A DNA stretch of 64,000 nucleotides, from contig CASGHK010000016.1 of the NCBI GenBank assembly GCA_949320185.1, positions 1 through 64,000 on the forward strand, written 5' to 3'. Made by a program: the position numbers and the translations under genes. The notes below the pieces were generated by a model. That model worked only from the letters and a program-made list of their open reading frames with translations, did not search any database and was not told the origin of the DNA. How positions within the stretch are numbered: the stretch's first letter is position 1; each line of letters starts with the position of its first letter. Source of the DNA: an uncultured Methanomicrobiales archaeon. Its GTDB lineage: Archaea; Halobacteriota; Methanomicrobia; Methanomicrobiales; Methanospirillaceae. Shown piece after piece: positions 55,430-64,000 of the stretch.

Positions 55430-55731
55430 TGGACAGGAGAAGATGTTGGTGGGGTTTCATCCGTCGGGGTGCTGCATACAGGGGGCAGGGTGATGTCCCT
55501 GCACCGGAATTGCATATCACTGAATCGACCGGTGGCGGCAATGAATCAACCCCTGCATGCCACGGTACTGCTCGGGACCAGGGCCCCTGTACGAACGACA
55601 GGGGCTGATGATCCAGGGATTGGGCACAAGGACTCTCGCTATTTTTCAAAGAGAGAGCACCCCGAACCGCAGGTTGTGGAGAATCTGCGAAGACCATACA
55701 CGAGAGAGGGTTTAGAAACGGATCCGCGGAC
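55430..55731. other. Intergenic stretch with strong inverted repeat
   Basis: About 300 bases with no gene. It contains a perfect 8-bp inverted repeat, GCCCCTGT (55583-55590) and ACAGGGGC (55598-55605) with a 7-base loop, and a looser CTCTC/GAGAG pair near 55632-55658. These may be structured RNA, transposition scars or chance. They sit directly before the 5'-truncated arsM, so the region may mark a deletion or insertion edge. Confidence 0.4.
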
Positions 55732-56304
55732 CGGGGTTCGACTGCTTCCTTGCGGCCGGCCGCGTTGGCCCAGGGGGAAAGGTGATCGGCGTGGATATGA
55801 CGGCTGAGATACTGATTCGGGCGCGGGAGAACGCGAAGGCCGGCGGGTATGACAACGTCGAGTTCCGTCTCGGCGAGATCGAGCACCTGCCGGTGGCCGA
55901 CGCCTTCTGTCGACGCCATCATCTCGAACTGCATCATCAACCTCGCGCCGGACAAGGCGCAGGTCTTGCGTGAGGCCTTCCGCGTACTTCGACCCGAAGG
56001 TCGGCTGATGATCTCCGACACGGTCATACTAAAGCCACGCCCGGACCCGGTCCAGCGATCGGTCGGTGCGTACGTCGGCTGCCTGGCCGGCGCTATCGAC
56101 AAGCAGACCTACATCGATCTGGTGAAGGCCGCGGGCTTTCGGGACGTGGAGATCCTCGAGGAGAGCCCGGTTTCGGTCGACTGTATGCTGAATGATCCGG
56201 CAGCCGCGGCGATCATGGAAGAGATGAAGCTCACGACCGAGATGGTCGAGCGGCTCGACGAGTTCATCGCCAGCATCAGGCTCACCGGGACGAAACCGAA
56301 CTGA
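55732..56304 (+). pseudogene. arsM: Arsenite methyltransferase (ArsM) remnant, 5' truncated and frameshifted
   Basis: The reading starts abruptly at [21 protein letters not shown]. The N-terminal part with the SAM-binding motif I is missing. An extra T near 55904 (GACGCCTTCTGTCGACGCC, where GCCTCTGTCGACGCC is expected) shifts the frame; the second frame continues as [16 protein letters not shown] through to a C-terminal CLAGAIDK and SVDCM, which hold the arsenic-binding cysteines of ArsM. The gene is almost certainly inactive. Its upstream neighbour and the repeat-rich spacer suggest a deletion at the island's edge. Confidence 0.8.
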
Positions 56305-56601: not shown

Positions 56602-57132
56602 GTGATCCGAATCCAATCCCGATTCCCCATACATCTCTCGGGCACCGCAGCCGCCCTGGCCCTGATCGTGCTCGGAGCAGTCCTGCTAGCCGGTTGCACG
56701 AGCCAGAGCGAACCGATTATGTCGGTGAATACGCCGGCGCCGGCCGCCCCTTCTGCCTCCACCCTGCCCGTCGGCGTCACGGTCACAAAGCTCGAGGTCT
56801 TTCACTTCCACCCGACCCGACAGTGTATCTCCTGCGTCACCATCGGCGATTACGCGAACGCGACCCTCACGACCTACTTCGCCGACGAGCTCGCCTCCGG
56901 GAAGATCGTTTTCCGGCATATCAATGGCGAACTACCTGAGAACCAGGTTGAAGTCGAGCGGTACGGTGCATCCGGCTCGTCCCTCTGGATCGGCGTCTAC
57001 ACCTCCGACGGCACTTTCTACCCCGAGGAGAACCTCAAGGTCTGGTATCGGACCGATGATAAGGGGCGGTTCATGGATTACCTGAAGGGCGTGATCGAGA
57101 AGCGCCTTGCCGGCGACCTCACGCCCGCATGA
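56602..57132 (+). CDS. arsF: ArsF-like thioredoxin-fold lipoprotein
   Basis: Exported lipoprotein of 176 residues: signal peptide and lipobox LLAGC (C32), then a thioredoxin-like domain with a CxxC (C75, C78 in RQCISC) in a TKLEVFHFHPTRQC strand-turn. It matches the ArsF family of the arsEFG systems, tied by genetic work to nitro-phenylarsenate reduction and aromatic arsenical handling. It starts at GTG 56602 and overlaps arsG by 4 bases. Substrate and redox partner here are not proven. Confidence 0.8.
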   Translation: MIRIQSRFPIHLSGTAAALALIVLGAVLLAGCTSQSEPIMSVNTPAPAAPSASTLPVGVTVTKLEVFHFHPTRQCISCVTIGDYANATLTTYFADELASGKIVFRHINGELPENQVEVERYGASGSSLWIGVYTSDGTFYPEENLKVWYRTDDKGRFMDYLKGVIEKRLAGDLTPA

Positions 57133-57854
57133 GCCTCCTCGAAGTGATGGAGACGCTCGGGACGAGCAGCGTCCCGGTCGTCGCGGCGTTCTTCATCGGC
57201 CTGATGATGGCGATCTCACCCTGCCCATTGGCGACGAACCTGACCGCGGTCGCGTACATCGCTCAGCGGAGCGAGGGGAGCCGGCACACTCTCCTCGTGG
57301 GCTCCCTCTACACCCTCGGCCGGATGGCGGCGTATGTCGGGATTGCCGCGCTGATCGTCGTGCTCGGCCTGAACGTCCAGGCGATCGCGCAGTTCCTCCA
57401 GCTCTACGGCGAGCGCCTCCTCGGTCCGCTGCTCATCGTAATCGGCGTGGTGATGCTGGACCTCGTCGGCCTCCCCGTCTCGCTCGGCTCGGCGCGGTAC
57501 CAGGCCGCCAAGCAGCGAATCACCGAGCGCCTCGCCGGGCGACGCTTCCTCGGCCCATTCCTCCTCGGTGTCCTGTTCGCCCTGAGCTTCTGCCCGTTCT
57601 CGGCGGTCCTCTACTTCGGCATGCTCATCCCGCTCGCGCTGCGCGAGCACGACCCCGTGATCGTGCCGTCGGTCTTCGCGATTGCCACGGGGCTTCCCGT
57701 CGTGGTCCTCTCGCTCCTGCTCGTCCAGGGGATCGCGACGGCCGGACGGGCCGTCCAGCAGGTGCAGACGGTCGAACGCTGGCTCAGGCGGGTGGTCGGC
57801 GTGGTCTTCATCCTCGCGGGCATCTACCTGATCGCCGTAATCTGGTTTCTCTAA
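57129..57854 (+). CDS. arsG: ArsG-like aromatic arsenical efflux permease (CcdA/DsbD-like)
   Basis: Membrane protein of 241 residues with six helices. The paired cysteine-proline motifs SPCP (about 30-33) and SFCPFSAVLYF (about 156) place it in the CcdA/DsbD-related branch to which ArsG transporters belong. The family includes a permease reported to export aromatic aminoarsenicals. Pairing with the ArsF-like lipoprotein (4-base overlap) is the usual context. Export of arsenicals by this protein is inferred. Confidence 0.8.
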   Translation: MSLLEVMETLGTSSVPVVAAFFIGLMMAISPCPLATNLTAVAYIAQRSEGSRHTLLVGSLYTLGRMAAYVGIAALIVVLGLNVQAIAQFLQLYGERLLGPLLIVIGVVMLDLVGLPVSLGSARYQAAKQRITERLAGRRFLGPFLLGVLFALSFCPFSAVLYFGMLIPLALREHDPVIVPSVFAIATGLPVVVLSLLLVQGIATAGRAVQQVQTVERWLRRVVGVVFILAGIYLIAVIWFL

Positions 57855-57901: not shown

Positions 57902-57940
57902 TTAAATAGTCAAAACATATCAACATACGTAACTATGTTG
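57902..57940 (+). promoter_or_regulatory. arsR promoter and palindromic operator over the start codon
   Basis: TTAAATAG (57902-57909) is a TATA-like element. CAACATA (57921-57927), six bases, then TATGTTG (57934-57940) form a perfect 7-base inverted repeat; its right arm includes the arsR ATG (57935). A regulator bound here would block transcription and translation start. This is a typical position for an autoregulatory ArsR operator in a leaderless archaeal gene. Confidence 0.6.
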
Positions 57941-59020
57941 CACAGCGACCTGACTGCCGCCACGAAAAACTTCTTCTCCGCGCTGAGCGACGAGACACGT
58001 CTCCGGATACTCTACCTGCTGCAGGAGCGGGGCGGCTTGTGCGTCAACGACATCAGCACGGCGATCGAGCGGGACCAGAGCCTCGTCTCGCACCACGTCC
58101 GATGCCTGCGGACCTGCGGTTTTCTCACCATGGAGAAGAACGGAAAATTCTCTATCTACTCACTGCGGAACGAACGGATCACCGACATCCTCGACCTCGC
58201 CGATCAGCATGTCCGGGAGATGTCGGAGCAGATCCTGCACTGCGACGTTGTCGCGGATCGATCGGAGCGCGCGAGAGTGTTCGCCATGTCTGGTCGGCGG
58301 GAGCCGGACGCCGGCGCCTGCACAACCCGGTCAGGACATCGACACCGGCTGATGGACCGGATCGGGACATCGGCCCGGGATCGCTGCCGGGATGCAGGGC
58401 TGACGCTGTTTGAGGACGACGTCCGGATCTTCATCCTCTGGGAGTTCGCCCGAACCGGCAAACCGCCGACCATCGGAGCGATCGAGGAACGCGTGGACGG
58501 CGCGTCCGGAAAGACCGTGCGCCAGGCTATCGCCCGCCTCGAGGCCGCCGATCTCCTCACGACCCGCGATGGGGTGATCACTGCGGCCTATCCGTTCTCC
58601 GCCGAACCGACCCGGCACTCCGTGATATTCGCCGAGGGCCAGGTGGTCCACGCCCTCTGCGCCACCGACGCGATTGGCATCCATTTCATGCTCGACGAGG
58701 AGATCACCATCCAGTCCCGCTGCCCCGAGTGCGAGAGCGATATCGTCCTGCTCCTCCGGGACGGGGCGATCGCCGAGCGAACCCCGGATGACCCCGTCGA
58801 GTTCGCCGCCGTTTCGAAGGACCGCAGCTGTACGGCCGAGACGTGTTGCCCCAACATCAACCTGTTCTGCGGCAGGGACCATGCGGACCGCTGGATCGAT
58901 CGGCACCCGGAGTTCGCCGACGGCGAGATCTACACGCTCGAGGAGGCGCTCGAGGACGGCAGGATGATCTTCGGCGAGTTCCTGGCGCGGGTCGCGGTTG
59001 CCCGTGGGAGTTCGGGATGA
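57935..59020 (+). CDS. ArsR repressor fused to MerB-like organometal lyase domain
   Basis: One frame of 361 residues. Residues 1 to about 105 are an ArsR/SmtB winged helix (NFFSALSDETRLRILYLLQERGG, LCVNDI with C36, SLVSHHVRCLRTCGF with C57 and C61, a metal- or arsenite-binding set). After a linker, about 150-350 resembles alkylmercury lyase MerB: a winged N-terminal part, then LCATDAIGIHFML with C242 and D245 matching MerB's catalytic Cys and Asp, and C304/C305 and C312 in a CCPNINLFCGRDHADRW segment. It could be a sensor with a bond-cleaving or ligand-sensing domain. An internal start for a separate lyase cannot be excluded. Confidence 0.75.
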   Translation: MLHSDLTAATKNFFSALSDETRLRILYLLQERGGLCVNDISTAIERDQSLVSHHVRCLRTCGFLTMEKNGKFSIYSLRNERITDILDLADQHVREMSEQILHCDVVADRSERARVFAMSGRREPDAGACTTRSGHRHRLMDRIGTSARDRCRDAGLTLFEDDVRIFILWEFARTGKPPTIGAIEERVDGASGKTVRQAIARLEAADLLTTRDGVITAAYPFSAEPTRHSVIFAEGQVVHALCATDAIGIHFMLDEEITIQSRCPECESDIVLLLRDGAIAERTPDDPVEFAAVSKDRSCTAETCCPNINLFCGRDHADRWIDRHPEFADGEIYTLEEALEDGRMIFGEFLARVAVARGSSG

Positions 59021-59559
59021 CGGACCCAACGGAGCAGCCATGCTCCTGCTGCCACCCGGACGCCGCTGGCGGCCAGATCTGCCGCGTCTGCAGAAATCCC
59101 GGTACTCTCGTCCCAGCGATCACCGTGGAGTCACTCGTCACGCCGGACCGCCGTATCCGGCTGGTGTCGAGCGATGGTTTCTCGGCCTGCCGCACTCCCA
59201 ATTGCCAGGTTACGTACTTCGCCAACGAACGCAACGAGTACATCGACAAAGCCGACCTCGCCGTCAGGATCGGCGTTAAGGAGACCGACGACCCGGCACC
59301 CCTGTGCTACTGCTTCGGGTGGACGAAGAGGATGGTCGACGACGAGGTCGCCCGGACCGGCACGAGCTCGGCGGTCTGCGAGATCACGGATCGAATGCGG
59401 GCGACCGGGTGCGCTTGCGAGGTGACCAACCCCTCGGGCCGGTGCTGCCTCCCTGACGTCCAGGCTTACGTCGCCCACGCGGCGGAACGGGCAGCGATGA
59501 CGAATTCGTTGGTACCCTCCACACCAGACGAACACCAGACCCTGAGACCACGATCATGA
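59017..59559 (+). CDS. CopZ-like [2Fe-2S]/zinc metallochaperone-type protein
   Basis: Protein of 180 residues. The cysteine pattern matches the N-terminal domain of archaeal CopZ: CRVC and a CRTPNC-type pair suited to zinc, then CYC and CACEVTNPSGRCCLPDV, which in CopZ hold a [2Fe-2S] cluster. The C-terminal heavy-metal-associated domain of CopZ is missing. It starts within the previous gene's stop (4-base overlap) and overlaps DUF166 by 4 bases. Role in arsenic handling is inferred from position only. Confidence 0.75.
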   Translation: MTDPTEQPCSCCHPDAAGGQICRVCRNPGTLVPAITVESLVTPDRRIRLVSSDGFSACRTPNCQVTYFANERNEYIDKADLAVRIGVKETDDPAPLCYCFGWTKRMVDDEVARTGTSSAVCEITDRMRATGCACEVTNPSGRCCLPDVQAYVAHAAERAAMTNSLVPSTPDEHQTLRPRS

Positions 59560-60362
59560 ACCCGGACACAAACCTCGTTGAACAGTCACCATCACAGGGG
59601 GATACCGGGGATGAGGGCGAGCTCATCCGGGTCTGCATCGTTTCGGACGGCACGCTTGGAGATCGGGCGTTCGAGCAGTGCATGGCACGATTCCCGACGG
59701 AGTTCGCACTGGTCGAGCCGCTCCCGGCAACCGTCGTGGACGACGTTTCGATCGAGGTACCCCAGGCCGACCTCTACCTCTCGTACCTCCGCTCGCCCGC
59801 GCAGGCACTTGCGCTCGTCGAGAAGGGGCGGCCCGTGATCCTCGGCGTCTCGTTTGGGCCCGGCTTCGTCAGGCAGGCGCTGAGTTTCAATCCGGCCGTG
59901 ATCGCCCCCGAGACCATGTGCTCGCTCGAGCCGACGACCGGGAATCACGCGCTCGACACATTCGCCAATGTTTTCGGTCGGCCGCAGTTCGCGGCCACGG
60001 TCCGCAACGGGAAGCTCGTGCGGCTTGATGTCGTCCGGGGATCGCCCTGCGGGTCGACCACCGCAGCCTCGACCGAGCTCATCGGCCAGTACCTCTCGCC
60101 GGAGACACTGCGCCATTTCGGCCTCCGGATCTGCCACCACTGCCGGGCGCCGCGCCTCGGGCGGACCTGCGATAAGGAGACTGCGGGACTGATCCATGTT
60201 CGAGAGCTCCTCCGGGCCCTGCCGCCCGAGGCGATCGACGCAGAGACAGCCGCGTACGGGGCGGAGTGCAGCCGGATCTACGACCGGCGGAAAGGGCAGC
60301 CCGACCCCGGCAATGTTCACCCCGATTCACCCAGCTCTACTACGGAGACTCATCATGGCTGA
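59556..60362 (+). CDS. DUF166-family protein
   Basis: Protein of 268 residues of the DUF166 group, sometimes labelled thymidylate synthase without clear proof. Recognised segments are [41 protein letters not shown] and [14 protein letters not shown]. Conserved cysteines in the last two and in [13 protein letters not shown] suggest metal or thiol chemistry. It lies between the CopZ-like gene and acr3, overlapping both, so it is most likely part of the arsenic operon. Its reaction is unknown. Confidence 0.8.
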
Positions 60363-61440
60363 AACAACGAAACGGCTCTCATTCCTGGACCGCTACCTGA
60401 CTCTCTGGATCTTCCTCGCGATGGCGATCGGGATCGGGCTCGGGTACTTCGTGCCCTGGATCCCGACGGTAATCACCGGATTTTCGGTCGGCACGACCTC
60501 GATCCCGATAGCGATAGGCCTGATCGTGATGATGTACCCGCCACTCGCGAAAGTCCGGTACGAGGAGCTCGGCACCGTCTTCCGCGATAAAAAGGTCCTG
60601 AGCCTATCGCTCGTCCTGAACTGGATTGTCGGGCCGATCCTGATGTTCGCGCTCGCGGCCCTCTTCCTCTCCGGCTATCCCGAACTGATGTACGGCCTGA
60701 TTCTGGTCGGGCTCGCGCGGTGCATCGCGATGGTGATCGTCTGGAATGACCTCGCCGGCGGAAGCTGTGAATATTGCGCCGCGATCGTCGGTCTCAACTC
60801 GATCTTCCAGGTCTTTCTCTACTCGGTCTATGTGTACATCTTCATCACAGTCCTGCCACCGCTCCTCGGTATTGGGACGGGCACCGCCGTCGCGATTACG
60901 ATCGGTGAGATCGCCGTCTCGGTCTTCATCTACCTCGGCATACCGTTCATTGCCGGCATCATAACCCGCTTTGCGCTGCTGCGCCGGAAAGGACGGGAGT
61001 GGTACGAGACCCGGTTCATCCCACGGATCTCACCGATCACGCTCGTCGCACTTCTGTTCACGATCATCGTGATGTTCAGCCTCAAGGGGGAGTACATCAT
61101 TCAGGTGCCGCTCGACGTGGTACGCGTCGCCATCCCGCTGCTGTTCTACTTCGTGATCATGTTCTTCGTGGCGTTCTGGATGTCGTACAAACTCCGCGTC
61201 GACTACCCGCGCTCGGCCAGTCTCTCGTTTACGGCCGCGTCCAACAACTTCGAACTCGCGATCGCGGTCGCGGTCGCGGTCTTCGGGATCGGCTCGCAGG
61301 TCGCCTTCGCGACCGTGATCGGCCCGCTCGTCGAGGTGCCGGTGCTGATCAGCCTGGTCAACGTCGCGCTCTGGATCAAAAAGCGATGGTTCCCGGACGC
61401 ACCCGGAGCGACGTGCGCCATCGACCAGGGGGTCATCTGA
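60355..61440 (+). CDS. acr3: Arsenite efflux transporter Acr3
   Basis: Ten-helix permease of the ACR3 family, 361 residues, exporting arsenite. C123 in [18 protein letters not shown] is the cysteine needed for function in studied Acr3 proteins; a NNFELAIAV segment holds the conserved acidic residue in a later helix. The ATG at 60355 lies 8 bases inside the end of the DUF166 gene. No ArsA ATPase is present, as is usual for Acr3. Confidence 0.95.
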
Positions 61441-61901: not shown

Positions 61902-62327
61902 ATGACCCGGCAGCGTGTCCTCTTCATCTGTACGCACAACGCGGCCCGCTCGCAGATGGCCGAGGGCTACCTCCGGGCCCGGTACGGCGACCGGTACGAG
62001 GCCTTTTCCGCCGGCACGGTCGCCTCCACCGTGAGCCCGCTCGCGATCCGGGTCATGGCCGAGATCGGGATCGATATCTCCGGTCACCGGTCCAAGGACC
62101 TCGGGGAGTTCATCGGAGAGGAGATGGACGTCGTGGTCACGGTCTGCGACGCGGCCGCCGCGACCTGTCCGATGTTCTCCGGGGCGACGAGGACGATCCA
62201 CGCGAGCTTCACCGACCCCGCCGCCACGACGGGAACGAATGAGGAGCGTATCGCCGTCTTTCGGTCGATTCGTGATGAGATAGCGGCCTGGATCGACGCC
62301 ACCTTCGGGGGTGCGGCTCACGATTGA
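61902..62327 (+). CDS. arsC: Arsenate reductase ArsC (thioredoxin type)
   Basis: Low-molecular-weight phosphatase-fold arsenate reductase of 141 residues. The P-loop FICTHNAARSQ has nucleophile C10; C82 and C89 (VCDAAAATCP) form the relay that accepts the disulfide, at the same positions as in the thioredoxin-coupled staphylococcal enzyme. An HRSKDL segment follows the DISG turn. A thioredoxin-like protein and an FTR catalytic subunit nearby could regenerate it. The last 17 bases overlap the MtrA-like gene. Confidence 0.95.
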   Translation: MTRQRVLFICTHNAARSQMAEGYLRARYGDRYEAFSAGTVASTVSPLAIRVMAEIGIDISGHRSKDLGEFIGEEMDVVVTVCDAAAATCPMFSGATRTIHASFTDPAATTGTNEERIAVFRSIRDEIAAWIDATFGGAAHD

Positions 62328-63024
62328 ACCGCCATCGAGCCGCAAGGTCCGGCCTCACCCGGACTATCCACCCGAGGAGGGGCGGTACCTCCGCGGCAAC
62401 GACTTCTCGCCGGTCGCGGTCGTGATCATTCTGAACACGGACGAGGACAAGATCCTGCCCGAGATCGAGGCGATGGTCCGAGCCGGCGTCGAGAGCGGGG
62501 CCGCGCTCTCGGGCACGGTCCAGACCCCGAACATCGGGTTCGAGAAGATCATCTGGAACATCGTCGGCAATCCGAACATCCGGTACCTCGTCCTCGGCGG
62601 TCCCGAGTCCGCGGGCCATGCCACTGGCGCCGCACTTAAGGCGCTCTTTGCGAACGGCATCGATGCGAAGTCCCGGATCATCGGCTCGGACGCCCCGTTC
62701 CCGGTCCTCTACAACGTTCCCCGCGAGGTCGTGGAACGGTTCCTCGACCAGGTGACTCTCGTCGACTGCCAGTTCCAGGACGTCCCGACCCTCAGCGAGG
62801 CGGTCCGCGCCTGCTACCAGGAGACGCCCACCGAGTTCCGCGGACAGTTCCTCTGCGATCCAGGTGTGTACCCCGCCGAACCTATCGGCGGAAGACTGAC
62901 CTGGAAGGTCACGCAGCCGTGGGCCGTGCCGAAGGACGAGAAGGAGGCGGCCGCCAAGGAACGGGCGCTGGCCCTCATCGAACGCTTGAAGGCGAGAAAC
63001 GCGCAGCGCCGGCAGGGAGGCTGA
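62311..63024 (+). CDS. Soluble MtrA-like corrinoid protein
   Basis: Protein of 237 residues matching the cobalamin-binding domain of MtrA, the methyl-carrier subunit of methyl-tetrahydromethanopterin:CoM methyltransferase. NPNIRYLVLGG, then GHATG with H103 (MtrA uses the histidine at this place as lower cobalt ligand), and ANGIDAKSRIIGSDAPFP all align. The usual C-terminal membrane helix is absent and the rest is soluble, so it is not part of the Mtr complex. The start is GTG 62311, overlapping arsC by 17 bases. A methyl-transfer role involving arsenic is inferred from context only. Confidence 0.82.
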   Translation: MRLTIEPPSSRKVRPHPDYPPEEGRYLRGNDFSPVAVVIILNTDEDKILPEIEAMVRAGVESGAALSGTVQTPNIGFEKIIWNIVGNPNIRYLVLGGPESAGHATGAALKALFANGIDAKSRIIGSDAPFPVLYNVPREVVERFLDQVTLVDCQFQDVPTLSEAVRACYQETPTEFRGQFLCDPGVYPAEPIGGRLTWKVTQPWAVPKDEKEAAAKERALALIERLKARNAQRRQGG

Positions 63025-63173: not shown

Positions 63174-63410
63174 ATGTTGAAGATCGAAGTACTCGGAACC
63201 GGGTGCGCGAAATGCAAGCGGCTGTTTGCCAACCTGCAGGAGGCGGTGAAGGCCCTGGGGGTTGAAGCAGAGTTGACCAAGGTCGAGTCGATAGACGAGA
63301 TCGTCGAACGCGGCGTCATGAGCACGCCCGCCCTCTTCATTGACGGGAAGATGCGGTTCTCGGGCCGGGTTCCGACTGTGGATGAACTAAAAAGGCTCCT
63401 TGAGGGGTAG
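63174..63410 (+). CDS. ArsE-like small thioredoxin-fold protein
   Basis: Redox-active mini-thioredoxin of 78 residues with CxxC in GTGCAKCKRL (C10, C13) and a cis-proline region MSTPALFIDGK. Small proteins of this type form the ArsE partner of ArsF/ArsG and also reduce disulfides of other proteins. The ATG at 63174 has GGAGG 5 bases before it; an in-frame TTG upstream is not used. A link to ArsC reduction is plausible. Confidence 0.8.
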   Translation: MLKIEVLGTGCAKCKRLFANLQEAVKALGVEAELTKVESIDEIVERGVMSTPALFIDGKMRFSGRVPTVDELKRLLEG

Positions 63411-63414
63411 GACG

Positions 63415-63867
63415 ATGACCGAGACACCCACCTGCTCATGCGGGTCAAAGGAACCAGCACGGCTCATCTTCCCGTGCGCCGGCCAGGCAAACACGGGCCA
63501 GCTCTCGAACCTCGCGGCCGTCGAACTGACCGAGGAGGGGTACGGCAGCATCGCCTGCGTCGCCAAGCTGGCAGTCGGGGACGAGGGCCTGGTGAAGGGC
63601 GCGAAGAACGCCGACGAGGTTGTCGTGATCGACGGGTGCGCGCTGCACTGCGCAAAGAAGATCGCGCTCGCACAGGGCGTGGTGCCCGCCCAGCACGTCG
63701 TCGTGACCGACCTCGGGATTGCGAAAGGGCCGTCGAAGGACTACATCCTCGAAGACGTCGAGACCGTAGTCTCGGCGTGCTGGCAGGGGATCGGGCGGGA
63801 CGCGCACGCCCCAGGGCCGGAACGAAAGGACGAGGGGGCGGGCTGCGGGTGCGGTGGAGGCTGCTGA
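63415..63867 (+). CDS. DGC-domain putative zinc-binding protein
   Basis: Protein of 150 residues: CSCGS at the N terminus, a FPCAGQANTGQL segment, then the VIDGCALHCAKK motif (D-G-C) of the DGC/DUF1847-like group, ending in GCGCGGGC. The cysteines are suited to zinc or a soft metal such as arsenite. Function is unknown. It starts 4 bases after the thioredoxin-like gene and is co-transcribed with it. Confidence 0.8.
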   Translation: MTETPTCSCGSKEPARLIFPCAGQANTGQLSNLAAVELTEEGYGSIACVAKLAVGDEGLVKGAKNADEVVVIDGCALHCAKKIALAQGVVPAQHVVVTDLGIAKGPSKDYILEDVETVVSACWQGIGRDAHAPGPERKDEGAGCGCGGGC

Positions 63868-63873
63868 ACGACG

Positions 63874-64000
63874 ATGACGACCACCCGGGATACGAGCGGC
63901 GAGGACGAGGTGCTACGGTGGGCCGCAGAGTACGCCCGGGAGCACGGGTGGGTGCTGAACCCCGACGGCAGGGTGCGGGCCATCGTGGTGAGCGGCCTTG
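63874..64000 (+). CDS. Ferredoxin:thioredoxin reductase catalytic subunit (partial)
   Basis: The last 42 codons match the start of FTR catalytic-chain proteins (WAAEYAREHGWVLNPDG and VVSGL). FTR passes ferredoxin electrons through a [4Fe-4S] disulfide site to thioredoxins. The cluster cysteines lie beyond the window, so completeness is unknown. It is the third gene of the thioredoxin-like unit and would power the local thiol pathway. Confidence 0.75.
   Translation, partial: MTTTRDTSGEDEVLRWAAEYAREHGWVLNPDGRVRAIVVSGL

Follow-up and report, generated by a model that had tools for sequence, protein, structure and literature searches.

A family of soluble MtrA-like corrinoid proteins in anaerobic arsenic-resistance operons

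Introduction

In all characterised cases that we know of, the MtrA domain carries methyl groups. It is named for MtrA of the methyl-H4MPT:CoM methyltransferase (TIGR01111, PF04208), which has a Rossmann-like fold, a cobalamin site with a cobalt-binding histidine and a C-terminal membrane anchor. Soluble proteins with the same domain include the cytoplasmic MtrA homologues (M. fervidus, 5LAA) and MtxA. The cytoplasmic MtrA paralogues of methanogens are 60-97% identical to membrane MtrA, the M. fervidus type being near-identical to it (PMC4915002). MtrA homologues have also been found in bacteria (PMC4915002; PMC9635834), where MtrA/MtrAH homologues of unassigned role have been suggested to supply the Wood-Ljungdahl pathway with methyl groups (PMC9635834). 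Already known, besides the fold, the family and these bacterial homologues, is an NCBIfam model for soluble MtrA-like proteins, NF002126 (PRK00964.1-4), whose annotation carries no arsenic function.

HgcA, the corrinoid protein of mercury methylation, would be the functional analogue of a corrinoid protein that passes methyl groups to arsenic; it belongs to a different protein family, binds cobalt through Cys and includes a membrane domain. When the ligand is His, methylcob(III)amide gives up its methyl group as CH3+, for which As(III) is a suitable acceptor, and the same reaction run backwards would demethylate pentavalent methylarsenicals. We know of no genes for anaerobic arsenic demethylation or for dedicated corrinoid arsenic methylation. 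Arsenic methylation by MtaA and methylcobalamin in methanogens is described in PMC13262295, which cites Thomas 2011 for it and has Wuerfel 2012 among its references. For methylotrophic methanogens, PMC6776024 and PMC10579292 report that methylarsenicals are demethylated anaerobically, in passages which suggest a corrinoid route and name no gene. Microbes that methylate and demethylate arsenic shape the toxic methylarsenic of paddy soils (PMC6776024, PMC10579292).

Here we analysed a stretch of 64,000 nucleotides (the window) from an uncultured Methanomicrobiales archaeon (contig CASGHK010000016.1, positions 1 to 64,000). It carries a gene for an MtrA-like corrinoid protein, denoted MtrAL. Small soluble corrinoid proteins of this kind, with the MtrA fold, make up a family of their own that forms part of anaerobic arsenic-resistance operons. 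The open-access literature that we searched, which most subscription journals lie outside, holds no prior report of the MtrAL clade, its distribution or its arsenic linkage. The family is a sequence-defined B12-type candidate recurring in the ars operons of many anaerobic phyla, and it shows that the MtrA fold, mostly associated with methanogenesis, is also put to use by organisms other than methanogens. The linkage hints at B12-based arsenic handling in anaerobic bacteria and archaea.

Results

The MtrAL gene lies within an ars operon

Profile searches of the open reading frames of the window placed MtrAL within an anaerobic ars operon, in the following order:

55728..56304, plus strand: arsM remnant, without about 86 N-terminal residues and frameshifted
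56602..57132, plus strand: ArsF-family nitroreductase subunit
57129..57854, plus strand: ArsG-type organoarsenical efflux permease
57917..58330, plus strand: ArsR-family regulator (PF01022)
59017..59559, plus strand: CopZ-N-terminal-like iron-sulphur metallochaperone
59556..60362, plus strand: DUF166 protein, present too in ars loci of related Methanoregulaceae
60355..61440, plus strand: acr3, arsenite efflux transporter, the sole ACR3 match in this genome
61496..61897, plus strand: DUF169-like gene, shortened by an internal in-frame deletion
61902..62327, plus strand: arsC, thioredoxin-type arsenate reductase (LMWPc), overlapping MtrAL by 17 bp
62311..63024, plus strand: MtrAL, MtrA-like corrinoid protein of 237 aa, GTG start, no membrane helix, H103 as cobalt His
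63174..63410, plus strand: MTH895/ArsE-family thioredoxin
63415..63867, plus strand: DGC-domain cysteine-rich protein (PF08859)
63874..64000, plus strand: ferredoxin:thioredoxin reductase beta-like (FTR-beta) gene, start only, continuing past the window
C16:64217-65305: ArsP_1 permease (PF03773), after the FTR-beta-like gene and past the window

The neighbours ACR3, ArsC, ArsE, ArsF, ArsG and ArsR bear out the first-pass annotation of this DNA, which had put the gene inside an arsenic operon. ACR3 scored 448 bits against a cut-off of 283, and the pI258-type score of ArsC was 125 bits, under its equivalog cut-off of 174. The DUF169 gene lacks, in frame, about 118 internal residues of the 254-aa copy of a congener, to which it is 92% identical past the junction. 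An intact ArsM gene stands elsewhere in the genome (C24:99867-100685), at a distance of about 6 kb from the two mtrA genes. Permeases of the ArsP type match PF03773, yet they score under both NCBIfam equivalogs (SaoE, SO_0444); we therefore regard organoarsenical export by them as putative. An aldehyde ferredoxin oxidoreductase-like gene adjoins the operon just past the window (L064:16977-18752), and a second Methanoregula genome likewise has one beside its ars operon (L077:19103).

The arsC stop codon, TGA, ends at 62327, giving the 17-bp overlap with MtrAL. Upstream of the conserved region at K12 there is no ATG, GTG or TTG start other than the GTG of the MtrAL frame. This overlap, singled out in the first-pass annotation, is real in the window and is a local feature, being replaced in other genomes by a gap of a few bp or a reversed gene order. 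The MtrAL frame is intact, and intact orthologues in several assemblies rule out a frameshift or assembly artefact as its source.

MtrAL is a soluble protein with the cobalamin-site residues of MtrA

MtrAL scored 119.8 bits against Pfam MtrA (PF04208; gathering cut-off 25) and 116.8 bits against the mtrA equivalog TIGR01111, under the cut-off of 249. It matches NF002126 over almost the full model (positions 3-185 of 186) with 201 bits against a cut-off of 161. A hydropathy scan found no hydrophobic or membrane segment: the 19-residue maximum is 0.84 overall and -0.17 beyond residue 185, whereas the C-terminal anchor of ordinary MtrA reaches 1.9-2.8. In the place of the anchor stands a hydrophilic tail (about residues 180-237) with the motif DPGAYPEPPLSGKxTWxVTQPW. 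Compared with MtrA, MtrAL is about 35-40% identical and has an extra loop near residues 41-60.

An AlphaFold2 model of MtrAL, made with 43 family sequences, has a pLDDT of 90.7. Foldseek pairs the model with MtrA crystal structures from M. jannaschii and M. fervidus; against 5l8x the E value is 3e-17 and the TM score 0.92 by target length. The residues around cobalamin in M. fervidus MtrA are Tyr18, Thr53, Asn55, Gly57, Asn64 and His84 (PMC4915002), and their counterparts in MtrAL by alignment are Y26, T72, N74, G76, N83 and H103. The last five are invariant in the 43-row alignment and Y26 is invariant in a 12-row alignment. H103 is the histidine of the GHATG motif (residues 102-106), so that a free-standing MtrA-like protein with its cobalt ligand kept and its anchor missing, as first annotated, is what the window encodes.

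One residue of the site departs from MtrA. Glu54, which in MtrA hydrogen-bonds the cobalt His, is E in 16/16 ordinary MtrA compared and is replaced by Pro73 in the window protein; among the 80 best of 177 MtrAL relatives the position is E in 52, P in 20 and A in 8. With Pro or Ala in the window protein and in 28/80 relatives, the cobalt environment may differ. Loss of Glu54 looks associated with ars linkage by Fisher test (p 0.009), but on the tree there are only 5 changes of the label and 4 independent starred pairs, so we claim no link. The comparison of MtrAL with ordinary MtrA revealed no new conserved cysteine pair able to bind As(III). Because the domain is a methyl carrier in the characterised cases and the cobalt-site residues are kept, MtrAL likely binds cobalamin.

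MtrAL forms a separate clade, mostly bacterial

We searched genomes related to that of the window and found MtrAL orthologues at 85-89% identity within the genus and 64-79% in other genera of Methanoregulaceae. A scan of GTDB genomes with a 12-sequence alignment gave 177 relatives, and the best 80 (54-88%) were analysed. These 80 are mostly bacterial, from Spirochaetota, Thermodesulfobacteriota, deltaproteobacteria labelled Myxococcota, Actinomycetota, Planctomycetota, Chloroflexota, Nitrospirota, Aerophobota, Verrucomicrobiota and Kiritimatiellota; alongside these are Borrarchaeum and one Methanosarcina MAG. Since many of the genomes are MAGs, single taxon labels may be wrong.

In a tree of 116 rows (IQ-TREE quick search) the MtrAL family lies on one side of a branch of length 1.31 with SH-aLRT support of 100, and ordinary MtrA, MtxA and the Methanosarcina soluble proteins lie outside. 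The Methanoregulaceae sequences are nested in a mostly bacterial group with moderate inner support (83-92). The tree program warned of long branches meeting among the outgroup clades, and we do not rely on the order of those clades. The first-pass annotation had proposed asking a tree whether the ars-linked clade stands apart from MtrA; it does, and the grouping with ordinary MtrA of a broken mtr operon, named there as refuting, is absent.

The same annotation had likened the protein to the cytoplasmic paralogues of methanogens. That comparison does not hold: MtrAL is about 35-40% identical to MtrA, against 60-97% for the paralogues (PMC4915002), and the 80 relatives analysed from the scan are mostly bacterial. 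Both these paralogues and MtxA, which has mtxX and mtxH as neighbours (L082, L103, L105), are ruled out as the identity of MtrAL by clade and gene context. MtrAL matches the model of the Methanosarcina proteins of NF002126, which too are often ars-linked; these proteins form a separate clade, are shorter (about 185 aa) and have CGKESxHFAGQ where MtrAL has GPESxGHxTG.

Some copies in the window's family are damaged. In a congener, the DUF166 gene is fused in frame to the C-terminal tail of MtrAL (L074; G001:C39:4944-6161), a natural deletion fusion in which acr3, arsC and the corrinoid domain have been lost. Another genome, G014, has three broken copies: one, next to an ArsP-type gene, has lost the whole corrinoid core in frame, one is an isolated tail fragment, and one is broken in two by a frameshift (L076:9458-9766; L075:9579-9779; L071:9750-10444).

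Linkage to arsenic genes recurs across phyla

The usual unit in Methanoregulaceae is acr3-(DUF169)-arsC-MtrAL, accompanied by an ArsP-type permease, ArsE, DGC and an upstream DUF166. Every one of the 12 genomes of the window's family that carry both genes has an ACR3 adjoining MtrAL, and 11 of the 12 have no other ACR3 locus (in G021 there is another ACR3, unlinked to MtrAL, and in G014 the ACR3 gene is split in two pieces at a single place). Four of the 24 genomes searched lack ACR3, and all four lack MtrAL; several others have ACR3 and no MtrAL. In the congener MAG G005, MtrAL is on a 5.2-kb contig without ACR3 or arsC. The steadier and wider neighbours of MtrAL are ACR3, the ArsP-type permease, ArsR and ArsE.

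We counted a locus as ars-linked when a gene for ACR3, an ArsP-type protein, ArsM or ArsC lay within 5 kb, and as having full flanks when at least 3 kb was present on both sides of MtrAL. Among the best 80 of the 177 relatives, 46 loci are ars-linked (31/48 with full flanks), spanning at least nine named phyla, and the label changes 14 times on the tree. By the same criterion none of 20 control regions (12 kb each, from archaeal genomes) is ars-linked; the Fisher p of 3e-7 is only indicative, because the sequences are related. The remaining 17/48 full-flank loci have no ars genes and include a group of sulphate reducers and Borrarchaeum; in the 7 of them that were inspected MtrAL stands alone among unrelated genes. 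Taken together, the retention of the setting by orthologues at 64-89% identity, the ars-adjacent relatives in many phyla and the 0/20 controls argue that the linkage is more than chance. In addition, the separate soluble clade (Methanosarcinaceae and a further family) is ars-linked in 10/21 loci, with ArsM adjoining several times.

The neighbours include no conserved methyltransferase or corrinoid reductase partner

Clustering of the neighbours in the 80 loci recovered known ars families, DsbD/ArsG-like proteins, DGC, ArsA-like ATPases and DUF166 as recurring. It gave no methyltransferase partner besides ArsM, which is near MtrAL in 9/80 loci. These 80 loci, the best of 177, hold 0 homologues of MtrH, MtxH or MtxX, and no dedicated corrinoid reductase is conserved in MtrAL loci.

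ArsM, the SAM-dependent arsenite methyltransferase, might carry out the same overall reaction as MtrAL and is sometimes adjacent to it, but differs in fold and methyl donor. Several MtrAL genomes gave no ArsM match; G009, G310 and G287 are complete or near-complete genomes that have MtrAL and ACR3 without it. The ArsM-free genomes, together with the broken arsM of the operon (an intact copy being elsewhere), indicate that MtrAL does not depend on ArsM.

Discussion

We propose that MtrAL is quite possibly, though by no means surely, a dedicated corrinoid methyl carrier for arsenic detoxification. MtrAL would bind cobalamin base-off with H103 as the lower ligand and act as a mobile methyl carrier between C1 metabolism and arsenic, the C1 side presumably being methyl-H4MPT in methanogens and methyl-H4F in Wood-Ljungdahl bacteria. 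In the methylating direction As(III) would receive the methyl group as CH3+ from CH3-Co(III), for which the His ligand of MtrAL, unlike the Cys of HgcA, would be suited. In the reverse direction Co(I) would take the methyl group of a pentavalent methylarsenical and As(III) would be released. ACR3 could export the As(III), and the ArsP-type permease might do so for methylated trivalent arsenic. That MtrAL moves methyl groups to or from arsenic is a plausible hypothesis. Methylation, in itself rather unlikely, is slightly favoured over the still less probable demethylation, because methylcobalamin-dependent arsenic methylation is reported in methanogens and ArsM lies beside a minority of loci in two separate MtrA-like clades. 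Several observations weigh against a methyl carrier for arsenic: 17/48 full-flank loci are free of ars genes, the 80 loci hold no MtrH, MtxH or MtxX homologue, MtrAL shows no new conserved cysteine pair for As(III), ArsM is missing from some complete or near-complete genomes with MtrAL and ACR3, and the replacement of Glu54 may alter the cobalt environment.

The linkage could have come about without any arsenic chemistry, if MtrAL were a general methyl carrier of anaerobes that travels with ars genes, either because of the harm that arsenic does to corrinoid enzymes or through transfer of the whole operon at once. The 17/48 full-flank loci without ars genes speak for this, as does the proposal that bacterial MtrA/MtrAH homologues feed the Wood-Ljungdahl pathway (PMC9635834). 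However, the linkage recurs in many phyla with differing ars gene orders and 14 state changes on the tree, the control regions are 0/20 linked, and a second clade is ars-linked independently; we consider a general carrier improbable, though a serious contender. It is scarcely credible that MtrAL is a displaced or degenerating MtrA gene left by a broken mtr operon. It belongs to the MtrA family and some family relatives are fragmentary (G001, G014), but the tree refutes this origin by setting MtrAL in a separate clade (support 100, branch 1.31), and its own genome has two ordinary MtrA genes elsewhere, no mtr genes lie nearby, and the frame is intact and 64-89% conserved in other Methanoregulaceae.

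The corrinoid might instead serve arsenic in another way, as a cob(I/II)alamin reductant or as a cobamide-bound sensor or regulator. A reductant would draw electrons from the operon's thioredoxin, FTR-beta and Fe-S proteins and act on arsenate, methylarsenate or nitroaromatic arsenicals. Redox proteins (ArsE thioredoxin, FTR-beta, CopZ-like, DGC) do recur near MtrAL, the cobalt could be tuned differently in the 28/80 relatives that have lost Glu54, and the reference list of PMC13262295 includes a work on cob(I)alamin hydride generation; for a sensor, there is the winged-helix fusion of one archaeal relative. Against these roles, both the fold and the conserved positions match a methyl carrier, no dedicated corrinoid reductase is conserved in the loci, and the fusion is seen once only. 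Both forms strike us as unlikely. A broader reading, and a more tentative one, is that MtrAL may be the core of an unrecognised corrinoid arsenic methyl-transfer system found across anaerobes, with the Methanosarcina MtrA-like clade independently recruited to do likewise. Such a system would either methylate As(III) or demethylate methylarsenicals as an anaerobic counterpart of ArsI.

Other MtrA-like proteins were observed near arsenic or metal genes. L083 and L102 (G077, G095), from an archaeal family other than the window's, have a long-branch soluble MtrA-like protein near ACR3, with ArsP, ArsE, ArsF and ArsG also nearby in L083 and ArsF and ArsG in L102. A relative outside the window's archaeal family has a C-terminal winged-helix HTH_20 domain (L101:7812-8681), possibly making it a cobamide- or arsenic-responsive regulator. 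A search of plasmids gave more distant MtrA-like proteins that are fused to the pterin-binding DUF4346 on Planococcus plasmids (L200:4345-8729, L201:352-4736); they have a Cys-rich N-terminus and directly follow an ArsR/SmtB regulator and a Zn/Cd-type P-type ATPase. These few, closely similar plasmids hint at a third setting of the MtrA domain with metal resistance.
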